A DNA stretch of 40,312 nucleotides from an uncultured Candidatus Pelagibacter sp. Its GTDB lineage: Bacteria > Pseudomonadota > Alphaproteobacteria > Pelagibacterales > Pelagibacteraceae. The position numbers and the translations under genes are program-made. Positions 31,954-40,312 of this stretch are shown here, one piece after another. Below the pieces are notes generated by a model. It searched no databases and was not told the origin of the DNA. It worked only from the letters and a program-made list of their open reading frames with translations. Within the stretch, counting starts at the first letter, position 1, and each line of letters starts with the position of its first letter. The stretch is taken from assembly GCA_913030805.1 (NCBI GenBank), contig CAJWDL010000008.1, positions 1-40,312 of the forward strand. The letters are read 5' to 3'.

Positions 31954-32274
31954 TTAGTTTCTTCTATTACGTGCATGAAAAATTACACTAAGATAGTGAA
32001 AACGCAAATGAATAAAATGAAAGAGTTTAGGGGCTGCCTCATTTCGTGTTACCAAATCTGCCTGGTGTACAAAAGGTATCTCGCAAATTTTTGCATCCCT
32101 TTTAGGTATCTTACAAATAAATTTGGCAAAAAATTCGCCATAGTTAAAACAATTTGGAATTGCTGTTAAAAGTACTTTTCTTTCCATGACAAACATTCCA
32201 CTAGTATAATCTTTTATTTTTTTACTTAAAGGAATATTTTTATCCTTGAAATAAAAGATTAGATTATTTTTTTT
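31954..32274 (-). pseudogene. C-terminal remnant of a GT2 (Dpm1-like) glycosyltransferase
   Basis: An open frame of 106 codons, limited upstream by a TAA at 32275-32277, reads NLIFYFKDKNIPLSKKIKDYTSGMFVMERKVLL, then FNYGEFFAKFICKI and KICEIPFV. It ends in a Leu/His/Arg-rich tail. This lines up with the C-terminal part of the intact GT2 gene at 33793-34572 (DYTSGFVCVKRKIF, NYGDYFVNFIVHC, IIELPFIEKARHSG). The N-terminal GT-A domain with its Asp-rich site is missing, and the frame runs straight into the end of the membrane-protein gene at 32264. It is best read as what remains after a deletion. An ATG at 32196 could start an 80-residue piece, but that would lack any catalytic site. Confidence 0.75.
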
Positions 32275-33792: not shown

Positions 33793-34572
33793 TTAACTTA
33801 ATATTTTTCTAAAAAAGTTCTTTATCAAGCTAAGAAAATAGTGAAGTGACAAGATGAAGTAATTAAAAGTTCCCCCTATTGATATTTCTAATTTACCTCC
33901 TACATCTTTACCAAACATGCTAGTTTTTGATGAACCGGAGTGTCTTGCTTTTTCTATGAACGGAAGTTCAATAATTGAATAGTTATTTTGTCTGCAATGA
34001 ACTATAAAATTAACAAAGTAATCTCCATAATTTCCTTTTAGTTTGTAATTTTCAAATATTTTCCTTTTAACACATACAAAACCACTGGTGTAATCAGTTA
34101 TATCTCTATAAAGAAAAAAATTACACAACCTATTAAAAAAAAAACTTTGATTTTCATTAAGTTCCTTTTTTGATTTATCATCTTTAAAATATCTGACACT
34201 ATTTTTAAGAAATCTGGAAAAAATTACTATGTCGTATTTTTTTTGATAATCATGAAATAATTTAATGCAATCTGGTGGATGTTGAAGATCGGTATCCATC
34301 CATATGATATTTTCATGTTTTGATTTTTGTATACCTAAATAGATAGAATTGGCTAAATTTTTCTTTAGATTATGTCTTACAAATAGTTTTATATTGTCGT
34401 AATCTTTTGCTACATCTTTTACTAAATCAATAGTTCCATCGGTTGAATTATCATCAACAACCATTATTTCATATTCTTGCTGAATTTCAGAAAAAATTAA
34501 TCTAATTTTTTTTATTAATTGAATTATGTTACCTTTTTCATTTAGCGTAGGAAGAATGACTGAATAACTCAT
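33793..34572 (-). CDS. GT2 polyprenol-phosphate sugar transferase (Dpm1-like)
   Basis: The 259-residue GT-A glycosyltransferase has SVILPTLNEKGNI, EIMVVDDNSTDGT (nucleotide-binding Asp pair), IIWMDTDLQHPP with the metal-binding Asp93/Asp95, DYTSGFVCVKRKIF, NYGDYFVNFIVHC and IIELPFIEKARHSGSSKTS. This pattern is that of dolichol/polyprenol-phosphate mannose or glucose synthases lacking the extra C-terminal GtrA-type membrane domain. It would load a sugar on a lipid carrier at the inner membrane for a GT-C enzyme, probably the neighbouring membrane protein 80 bp downstream on the same strand. A truncated relative lies at 31954-32274. Confidence 0.85.
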   Translation of the reverse strand: MSYSVILPTLNEKGNIIQLIKKIRLIFSEIQQEYEIMVVDDNSTDGTIDLVKDVAKDYDNIKLFVRHNLKKNLANSIYLGIQKSKHENIIWMDTDLQHPPDCIKLFHDYQKKYDIVIFSRFLKNSVRYFKDDKSKKELNENQSFFFNRLCNFFLYRDITDYTSGFVCVKRKIFENYKLKGNYGDYFVNFIVHCRQNNYSIIELPFIEKARHSGSSKTSMFGKDVGGKLEISIGGTFNYFILSLHYFLSLIKNFFRKILS

Positions 34573-35393: not shown

Positions 35394-36389
35394 ATGAATA
35401 AAAATAAGAAAATTATTTTAACAATATTGGGATATCTGATTAGTTTGTCTCTGCTTATTATAATATTCAAAGATACCAACTTTGAAAGAGTTTTTGGATA
35501 TCTTAAAAAAATAGATCCATTTCTAGTACTGCTAGCTTTGCTATTGAATGTAATATTTGTATGGATACGTGGTGCTTACCAAAAAAATAATCTACATATC
35601 ACAACGCCAAATATACGCTTAGGTACATCTATAGTATCCATTGGAGTATCTTTATTTTATAATGCAGTTCTTCCAACCAGATTAGGTGACGTTATAAGGG
35701 CGGTTTTTATTTCGTTGAGAGATAATATAAAAAAAAAAAGATTACTACCATATATTCTAGTGGAGAAGATTATTGATTTTTTATTTGTAATATTTTTTTT
35801 TTTTCTTATTGTAATAATTGAATCAGAAGGTGAGATTTTATCTTATCTTTTTGTTACTTTAGCAGTGATAATAATCTCCATAATAACTTTTATTTTATAT
35901 GTTAAGTTTAATAAAAAAGTTATTAATTTTGTACTATCAATAGTACCAGCGAAATTTAATAAATTATTTTCTGAGATTAATCATGAGGCAATAAACGGTA
36001 TGTCATGTTTTAAAACCAAGAACCAAATTACCAAAAGTTTAGTGCTACTTATTAGTGGTTGGATTATCATGCTATGCATATTTTATATATTATCATATCC
36101 ATTTATTGATCAACTGAATCTTCCAAATTATTCTTCTATTTATTTTTTATTTTTTTCCGCTGTTGCATTATCTTTGCCAAGCGCACCTTCAGGCATTGGA
36201 ACCGTACATTATGGACTTTATCTTGCTGTGCAAATCCTAATGGGTGGAGATGTGTCAAATGATCAAAGCGATTTGGTTGCAGCATTAATAATTAGTCTAC
36301 ATTTTTTACTAGTCGTACTCGATGTCATTGTTGGAGGGGTAATTCTATTGATATATAGACAAAAAGGTGTAAAATTTGTTGACAAATGA
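35394..36389 (+). CDS. Flippase-like membrane protein (lysylphosphatidylglycerol-synthase TM family)
   Basis: The 331-residue protein has about eight membrane helices and matches the LPG_synthase_TM/UPF0104 family. Visible signs are the early VWIRGAYQKNNLH, FYNAVLPTRLGDVIRAVFI (the conserved P-x-R-x-G-D/E-x-x-R block), and LSLPSAPSGIGTVHYGLYLAVQ (P-S-x-P-G/S-x-x-G block), with a last basic segment. There is no C-terminal aminoacyl transfer domain, so it belongs to the short, transporter-like members often found next to glycolipid enzymes. It is followed 37 bp later by the radical-SAM gene. Confidence 0.82.
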   Translation: MNKNKKIILTILGYLISLSLLIIIFKDTNFERVFGYLKKIDPFLVLLALLLNVIFVWIRGAYQKNNLHITTPNIRLGTSIVSIGVSLFYNAVLPTRLGDVIRAVFISLRDNIKKKRLLPYILVEKIIDFLFVIFFFFLIVIIESEGEILSYLFVTLAVIIISIITFILYVKFNKKVINFVLSIVPAKFNKLFSEINHEAINGMSCFKTKNQITKSLVLLISGWIIMLCIFYILSYPFIDQLNLPNYSSIYFLFFSAVALSLPSAPSGIGTVHYGLYLAVQILMGGDVSNDQSDLVAALIISLHFLLVVLDVIVGGVILLIYRQKGVKFVDK

Positions 36390-37968: not shown

Positions 37969-38050
37969 AATAACAGCAAAATCAAAAAAAATTTAAAAGG
38001 AATGGTGCCCACATTTCGGATCAAAAGGATTTATTTATAGTTGTTCATAA

Positions 38051-39111
38051 TCAAGACTGTTGCCCACTTCGCACTGTAAAACTACATTTTCTAAAATCTT
38101 TTGATTTTTTAATAAAATCTAAAAAAAATAAAATTTCCATAAACCAATTCTTTTTTTCCTTATTTAAATTGCTTGAAAAGAAATTTATTATTTCATTTTT
38201 TTGTGTAAGCCACTGCGAGTAACCATTTTTAGCAAATTGAATACGATAATTTACGTTATCAAATATATCGTTATAATCGATTAATTTTTCACTTTTTTTA
38301 TTAATGAGAAATCCAATTTTCTTATCCGTAATATATTCATTCATGGTAGAATCATCATAGGAGACAATATATTTACCCATTGAAATCGCTTCCAAAAAAC
38401 CCATTCCTATACCTTCTTGCTTTCTGGGTGAAATGAACACGTCACAATTTTTTACATATTCAATGTATTGGGTTTGAGGAAGAAAAGTCTTCTTTACAAG
38501 CTCTATTTTATATTTGTTTAAAATTGTTTTATCAAATTCTTCAGGATTTTTTCCTGAATCAGGACTGTCAAAATAAATTATTTTGTTAATTGTATCTAAA
38601 TCAAACAAACCTAGCCAATCATTTAACCTTAAAGTGCTTCTAAACCAAAAAAAAATATTTAAAGTTTTTTGAGGAGTTTTAAATTCCATTTCTTTTGGCC
38701 TAATAAAATACTTTAGTCCTATATTCTGACAACCTATTTTATCCGCATGTAATTTAATTTTATTGGAAAAACATAATAATTTAATGTTTATATATTTGAT
38801 TTTTTTCCAATATTTCCACTCAAAAGATAAGGTATCATACATTGGTGCCCACATTAAATTTTTACCTCTTAGTTTTAATAGATCATATGAAGGTATTTTA
38901 GTTTTAATAGATCATATGAAGGTATTAATGTCTGGAAAAAAAATATATTTTCATAATTCTTTAAGTATTTAATTAATTTTTTTTCTTCATTCAATGACCA
39001 CCAATAATTATCTATGGTAAAATATTCAGAGAATATTTCCCTTAAGAAATCAGCGCACCTAGTTTTCTTGTGATAATCATGGTCAACGAAAGCTAATTTT
39101 TTTTTAACCAT
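38051..39111 (-). pseudogene. GT-B glycosyltransferase split by a 29-bp tandem duplication
   Basis: Two frames make one gene. The 5' part (39111 down to about 38875, 78 codons) reads MVKKKLAFVDHDYHKKTRCA and ends ENIFFFQTLIPSYDLLKL before going out of frame. The 3' part resumes as RGKNLMWAPMYDTLSFEW and runs to 38051, with the GT-B donor-site block ISPRKQEGIGMGFLEAISMG. The break is an exact 29-bp tandem duplication at 38869-38926. Removing one copy gives 1032 bp, 344 codons including stop, in one frame. As given, the product is truncated at about 78 residues, or the C-terminal part starts at the ATG at 38854. It may be a real mutation, a reversible switch, or an assembly error. Confidence 0.85.
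38869..38926. repeat. Perfect 29-bp tandem direct repeat
   Basis: Positions 38869-38897 and 38898-38926 are identical. The unit begins TTAGTTTTAATAGATCATAT and ends GAAGGTATT. Since 29 is not a multiple of three, the second copy shifts the frame of the glycosyltransferase on the minus strand. No transposase-type ends or target signature surround it; replication slippage is the simplest origin. Confidence 0.95.
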
Positions 39112-39128
39112 ATTTAAAATTATAAATT

Positions 39129-40161
39129 TTATGCCAACACCCGTGATATTAGCTTTTTGTTGTTATAAACCCATGACATGAGTTTTTTTATACCTATTTC
39201 AGGGCTAATTGAAGGCTCCCACCCAAATTGTTTTTTTAACTTTGAATTATTACTAATATACACTTTTTGGTCACCTAGTCTCCATTTAGAAAAATTAACT
39301 TTAATTTTTTTTCCCATTATTTTTTCTAAAATTTTTATTAATTCAAGTATACTTAATGAAAAATTACAACCACCTCCGACATTATAAACTCTGTCAACAT
39401 CAATTTTTTTATTATTTGCTAAAATTTCAAACAAACGATTCAAATCATCAATATATAATAAATCTCTTACTTGCTTGCCATCTCCGAATATAGTAATTTT
39501 TTTTTTCTAATATCGAAGCTATAACAAACCAAGCTAACCAACCTTGATCTTCAATTCCAAATTGATTTGGACCATAGATACAACTTTGTCTCAATACGTA
39601 ACCGTTAATTCCGTACATTCTTGAATAGTCTCTCACATATTGGTCGGCTGCACCCTTTGAACATCCATAAGGAGAGTGAAAATCTGTTTTATTTTCTTCA
39701 TCAATACCTTTAATATTATTTTTGTATATATAGCGATTTTTGTCAATTTTAACTTTATTAGAACCTAAATTACCATAGACTTTATTTGTTGAAGTATAAA
39801 TTACGGTAGATTTCAATTTATTAACACGAATTGACTCAAGAACATTTAAATTTCCAAGAGCATTAATTTCAAAATCTTCTCGAGGATTTAAAAAAGAAGT
39901 TGTAACTGCAACCTGACCTGCGCAATGAATAATAACATTTGGATTAATATTTGATAGTGTTTTTGATAATTCTTTAAATTTTCTTATATCACCTCTAATG
40001 AATCGTACATTGGTTTCTTTTTTTAACCATTTAATGTTAAAAATTGTTCCCTTTCTAGATAAATTATCAAAGATATACACTTGCCATTTTTTTTTAAAAA
40101 AATAATGTGCCGCATTACTTCCTATAAAACCTGCCCCTCCAGTAATAAATATTTTTTTCAT
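39129..40161 (-). pseudogene. CDP-paratose 2-epimerase-like SDR, frameshifted at a homopolymer
   Basis: The N-terminal 237-codon frame has the NAD loop ITGGAGFIGSN, VYIFDNLSRKGTIFNIKWLK (typical of CDP-paratose 2-epimerases), VIYTSTNKVYG and the catalytic SPYGCSKGAADQYVRDYSRMYG, then drifts to nonsense after ASILEKK. If one A of the A10 tract (39497-39506, T on the plus strand) is removed, it continues KKITIFGDGKQVRDLLYIDDLNRLFEILANNKK into the second frame. That frame ends with the VYNVGGGCNFSLSILELIKILE block. The corrected gene is 1032 bp, about 343 residues, the family's normal size. Causes could be mutation, slippage-based switching, or a sequencing error. Confidence 0.85.
39497..39506. 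repeat. 10-base T/A homopolymer at the frameshift
   Basis: Ten T on the plus strand (A10 in the coding strand). Nine would restore the frame of the CDP-paratose 2-epimerase-like gene. Tracts of this length are prone to slippage by polymerases in vivo and to sequencing errors. Confidence 0.8.
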
Positions 40162-40267: not shown

Positions 40268-40312
40268 TGGTGCCCACAGTGTGAGTCGAACACACGGCCT
40301 CTTCCTTACCAT
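40268..40312 (-). tRNA. tRNA, probably Thr (anticodon GGU), truncated by the window edge
   Basis: On the minus strand the 3' half reads from the anticodon loop AUGGUAA (anticodon GGU) through the stem GGAAG and variable loop AGGCC. The T-arm GUGUG-UUCGACU-CACAC and acceptor UGUGGGC follow, then discriminator A and an encoded CCA. Spacing fits a class I tRNA exactly. Only the 3' part is visible, so the identity rests on the anticodon position. The polysaccharide region ends 107 bp from it. Confidence 0.8.

Follow-up and report, generated by a model that had tools for sequence, protein, structure and literature searches.

Two adjacent sugar genes close to a contig end in an AT-rich Pelagibacter genome are each interrupted by one small lesion. 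The locus raises the question of whether this two-gene unit has been lost, is switched on and off, is rescued during transcription, or is intact in the cell and broken only in the assembly. The window analysed here is the whole of contig C8 (40,312 bases, 28% G+C) from a 1.0-Mb genome in 33 contigs that is about 80% complete. The initial annotation had placed an A10 tract in a CDP-paratose 2-epimerase-like gene and had stated that A9 in place of A10 would join two frames. The tract listing and an alignment to an intact homologue (L004) confirmed the coordinates of the tract and the frame arithmetic. The features of the unit are as follows:

39497..39506, minus strand: A10 tract (T10 on the plus strand) at the frame change of the epimerase-like gene, from the tract listing and the alignment to relatives
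39448..40161, minus strand: epimerase-like gene, upstream part, a 237-aa frame with GGAGFIG, STNKVYG and YGCSK and a stop 15 codons past the tract
39129..39506, minus strand: epimerase-like gene, downstream part in another frame, the C-terminal ~120 residues, from the alignment to relatives
38869..38926, minus strand: exact tandem duplication (2 x 29 bp) that breaks the glycosyltransferase frame, from the repeat search and alignment
38875..39111, minus strand: GT4-type glycosyltransferase, upstream part, a 78-aa frame with no Pfam family itself, from the alignment
38051..38896, minus strand: glycosyltransferase, downstream part, Glycos_transf_1 (PF00534), from Pfam and the alignment

In the homology alignment, frame -2 (40161-39499) corresponds to residues 1-220 of L004, and frame -3 (39506-39135) to residues 218-340. 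The upstream part is 66% identical to L003 and L004, and the downstream part is 53-55% identical to their C-terminal residues (55% for L004). The gene is split at about residue 220; thus, the complete protein of about 340 residues is not encoded in one frame, and the product of the upstream frame is without the last ~120 residues. Because the halves lie in different frames and the unshifted frame stops shortly past the tract, the two frames would join with one A fewer or two more. By our own reasoning a -1 ribosomal frameshift was ruled out, as it reaches the wrong frame. We also infer from the domains that the parts would not serve as two separate half-proteins, and rejected that option.

The SDR fold is marked by a glycine-rich GxxGxxG motif and by YxxxK. 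In the upstream part, GGAGFIG is found at residue 8, STNKVYG at residue 124 and YGCSK at residue 165, so that the cofactor and catalytic motifs are present, and its matches to PF01370 and PF16363 are far over the cut-off. When the intact relative L004 (340 aa, not the window protein) was used for a structure search, the CDP-tyvelose 2-epimerases 9rl0 and 1orr were by far the nearest (312 and 281 bits; the next best reached 136), although the window gene itself, unlike this homologue, is split. The assignment to the CDP-tyvelose/paratose 2-epimerase family of extended SDR enzymes is therefore supported, and with it the family name first given to the gene. No NCBIfam equivalog over the cut-off was found for the window parts or for four relatives, among the best 25 matches for most of them. 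A glucose-1-phosphate cytidylyltransferase-like gene at 2184-2885 scored 282.7 bits, below the cut-off of 300.25, and a CDP-glucose 4,6-dehydratase over the cut-off was not found in the ~80% complete genome.

The glycosyltransferase is the next gene downstream of the epimerase, and the two lesions are about 570 bp apart. When the glycosyltransferases of four relatives were aligned directly, all gave the same split. The initial annotation had described two adjacent slippage-type lesions; the neighbouring gene is indeed broken, but by a 29-bp tandem duplication and not by a homopolymer. The array has exactly 2.0 copies without additional junction homology. Only one other exact tandem duplication with a period of 14-199 was found in 385,721 bases of the own genome, the window included; it has a period of 18 with an inner 9-base unit and preserves the frame. 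The same search in 800,000 bases of another genome (G012) returned one duplication, of 45 bp.

Relatives that carry the epimerase were examined at five loci, L003, L004, G215, G159 and G346, the last three of which were placed within the window's own family. The epimerase and the glycosyltransferase are intact and adjacent in four of them (L003, L004, G215 and G346); in G159, the epimerase is followed by what appears by eye to be a glycosyltransferase of a different kind. At the homologous site the tract is A9 in L003 and L004, A6 in G215, A7 in G159 and A10 in G346, and all five genes are in frame. It had been asked whether sister genomes keep at least nine A at this place, and three of the five do. 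In L003 (11474-12658) and L004 (11487-12659), about 3.5 kb from the intact pair, there is a gene that by eye resembles a fusion of cytidylyltransferase and phosphoenolpyruvate mutase, which hints at a glycan with phosphonate.

The unit is rare in the order. Counting the own genome, the epimerase (E <= 1e-60) is present in four of 397 genomes and the glycosyltransferase (E <= 1e-25) in three, and among 148 nearer relatives the epimerase was found in the own genome only. This rarity fits a dispensable unit. Two Pelagibacteraceae records, AG-333-I10 and AG-461-A07, are the closest named homologues among the 80 best of 181 relatives; together with base composition and genome size, they point to SAR11/Pelagibacterales as the group of this genome. 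Phage and viral sequences gave no closer match than these loci, which reach 66%: the 278 matching phage records are all below 60% identity (best 46.7% among the matches listed), and six viral contigs lie at 56-61%.

The length of the tract is ordinary in this genome, whereas a frame break at a tract of such size is rare. The window has 14 A/T tracts of at least ten bases, and 450,402 bases of the assembly have 155. Of these, 61 are spanned in one frame by homology, spanned meaning a one-frame match with 15 codons on either side of the tract, and another 93 could not be assessed in this way; for tracts of at least nine bases, 168 of 399 are spanned. A gene for a 331-aa membrane protein (PF03706) has an A11 (35729-35739) and a T12 (35793-35804) about 53 bases apart in its open frame, which is unbroken although both are longer than the tract of the epimerase. 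A split-gene scan with 1,657 ORFs from relatives against the same 450 kb, in which 228,901 of the 450,402 bases lay under homology matches above 60 bits, returned three places, the two in the window and one weak candidate, and the only tract of such size at a frame change was 39497-39506. The weak candidate (L099, near 3.7-4.3 kb) was set aside, as it rested on one query with 39 and 35 bits and 28-31% identity. The split of the epimerase was detected by 101 queries and that of the glycosyltransferase by one, from G215. Query ORFs were taken from the first ATG onwards; the glycosyltransferases of L003 and L004, which start with GTG, were thereby truncated at the N terminus, and a single query caught the lesion. 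In an earlier scan, 771 ORFs of G012 (203 queries matched) gave no split gene; since the pair itself was not found in G012, that scan is silent on it.

Independence of two lesions in one two-gene unit is unlikely, because, by a hand estimate, the unit makes up near 1% (about 2 kb) of the 229 kb covered by homology matches. Both lie less than 1.5 kb from the contig end (~0.8 kb and ~1.4 kb), where an assembly is least reliable. It is possible, though doubtful, that an assembly or amplification fault close to the end of contig C8 gave a wrong tract length and an unmerged 29-bp overlap, and that both genes are actually intact. An array of exactly 2.0 copies without junction homology would be expected from an untrimmed join, the contig end appears to cut a tRNA gene, and the broken pieces look constrained. 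Against such a fault stand the homopolymer counts given above together with the lack of any other convincing break; on these grounds we do not take a general miscalling of homopolymers to be the main cause. Nor is there a k-mer signature in the 386 kb examined, where a second exact 29-bp duplication was sought as a mark of k-mer-overlap faults and none was found.

The contig appears to stop within the putative tRNA gene (40268-40312, minus strand), cutting off its 5' end. The Rfam tRNA match has 20.4 bits against a gathering score of 29, ARAGORN reported no tRNA in the window, and the anticodon as read by eye is GGT (threonine). An 11-mer also recurs around the unit:

38003-38013, 38843-38853 and 40268-40278: the copies of TGGTGCCCACA

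These are the only three copies in the entire 1.0-Mb assembly, all in one orientation and within the 2.3-kb region of the two-gene unit. They lie just past the glycosyltransferase, within its conserved WAPM codons, and at the 3' end of the half tRNA gene, respectively. The outer two flank the unit and, judged by their positions, look like a tRNA-end insertion site. The inner copy may be codon choice, since the full 11-mer is absent from all four relatives checked. The 116 bases 3' of the unit occur once in the genome, and the adjoining radical-SAM gene was found in one of 61 genomes, the own genome (E <= 1e-80). Promoter-like matches were not in excess (18 versus 15.6 in shuffles), and no terminator-like site was found.

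To ask how old the lesions are, we compared the identity of the broken pieces to two outgroup loci, L111 (G215) and L113 (G346), with that of the intact copies L003 and L004. Most comparisons are alike, with differences of up to 0.06 in both directions. The N part of the epimerase has an identity of 0.53 to L111, versus 0.54 and 0.55 for the intact copies, and the C part of the glycosyltransferase has 0.39, versus 0.41 and 0.40. Against L113 the latter gives an identity of 0.37 versus 0.40 and 0.42, and a pN of 0.41 versus 0.36 and 0.36, a hint of some additional change that was not repeated against L111. The broken pieces thus have little or no extra divergence and do not clearly bear the marks of long decay. 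Because synonymous differences are saturated at these distances, this comparison would overlook a loss of moderate age.

Taken together, the lesions most likely reflect gene loss of an ordinary kind at an early stage, or else a faulty assembly close to the contig end, a new switch being less likely. We give about an even chance to the recent inactivation of an accessory two-gene sugar unit in which both genes were knocked out. In this unit, a GT4-type glycosyltransferase would come after a CDP-tyvelose/paratose 2-epimerase-like SDR enzyme, and the unit probably makes and attaches one sugar of what may be a surface glycan. Replication slippage would have added one A to the poly(A) tract, with loss of the epimerase, and the 29-bp tandem duplication would have cost the glycosyltransferase. 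Once either gene was lost its partner would be useless, so that the second lesion would have met little selection and come at almost no cost. Each gene is collinear with intact relatives on either side of one lesion, and more than one gene of the same unit is broken here yet intact in relatives, as expected of early pseudogenes. The common loss of function offered in the initial annotation is supported as a reading, since two partner genes are broken and four of the five relatives have the intact pair. Both lesions are present in the assembly; we infer that they also exist in the cell, in which order they arose, that the unit has a glycan role and that it no longer functions. Elsewhere in the window, 31954-32259 appears to be the C-terminal remainder of a family-2 glycosyltransferase that lacks roughly the first 150 residues, and would be a third damaged glycan gene. 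It is 35% identical over 60 residues to the window gene at 33793-34572 and has no Pfam or NCBIfam match. This apparent remnant fits a turnover of glycan genes in the window.

Among known cases, frameshifts in poly(A) tracts of Blochmannia and Buchnera genes (PMC3017870, which cites Tamas et al. 2008) are among the nearest to this one. In transcriptional slippage, RNA polymerase would slip on the A10 so that a share of the mRNA encodes the full-length epimerase, as the initial annotation had suggested. The epimerase has the signature described for Blochmannia in the excerpt of PMC3017870, namely a single indel in a tract of at least nine bases, while the remainder of the gene is open with no clear acceleration, synonymous sites being saturated. 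The AT-rich genome is a further likeness, and eight genes of Blochmannia vafer have such frameshifts (PMC3017870, in excerpt). Nine is also the length at which selection against runs shows in a large share of 108 genomes (excerpt of PMC1088944). Unlike the Blochmannia and Buchnera genes, the window gene is an accessory sugar gene in a lineage that we take as free-living, and its partner is broken by another type of lesion. Rescue would require one A fewer or two more, whereas single-base additions dominate: according to the excerpt of PMC5574713, 80% of transcription insertions are of one base, and in Buchnera 16 of 57 deletions versus 151 of 157 insertions lie in homopolymers. In favour of rescue, deletions in Buchnera homopolymers also increase with run length (same excerpt of PMC5574713). 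In tssM1 of Citrobacter rodentium, which has an 11-A tract, the number of A in the mRNAs ranges from 10 to 15, and frameshifting is about 20% (PMC4256274, in excerpt). There, as here, the poly(A) lies shortly before a premature stop (28 nt in tssM1, 15 codons in the window), and in the constructs, as we interpret them, removing one A or adding two restores the frame (same excerpt of PMC4256274). The systems differ in that both protein lengths of tssM1 are made and needed, while the window gene has a broken neighbour (PMC4256274, likewise). The earlier suggestion is therefore weakened: some full-length epimerase could arise in this way, but a full-length glycosyltransferase could not, as its 29-bp lesion is beyond rescue by slippage, and the pair would not be restored. 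We consider such a rescue very improbable.

We consider phase variation improbable, in which the poly(A) tract, and perhaps also the 29-bp duplication, would reversibly turn a surface sugar on and off in the manner of the contingency loci of pathogens. The out-of-frame tract does lie inside a sugar gene, the sugar being presumably at the surface, and across species the tract varies from A6 to A10 in relatives, with A10 in the window. Tandem duplications can collapse again, which is a point for such a switch, whereas ten A are short for fast switching by replication. All five relatives are in frame, so that their differences in tract length are differences in sense codons. Tracts of at least ten bases are common in the own genome, with at least 61 in frame within genes having homologues, and a working unit would need both separate switches to be on. 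In Campylobacter, homopolymer contingency loci in surface-glycan genes are reportedly for the most part G/C tracts, and variable within a single strain. The window resembles these loci in having a homopolymer of out-of-frame length in a probable surface-sugar gene, and differs from them in that its tract is A/T and known from one assembly, whereas theirs vary within one strain. No title on homopolymers, phase variation or slippage in SAR11 was among the literature matches listed. It is highly improbable that a free-living SAR11-type bacterium switches a surface sugar through a pair of reversible lesions, with slippage at the poly(A) tract of the epimerase and collapse of the 29-bp duplication in its glycosyltransferase partner.

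If switching were nevertheless true, the huge populations of the ocean would always contain cells with and without the sugar, for example to hedge against phages. If the lesions are real, a direct test of reversibility is possible, since each is of a type able to revert. If the lesions are an assembly fault, the locus would be a warning on inferring phase variation from contig ends. Returning to gene loss, we propose that the locus, if real, would be a clean snapshot of the first steps in the loss of an accessory sugar unit from a streamlined marine bacterium, in which the partner genes have each been struck once, ahead of further decay.
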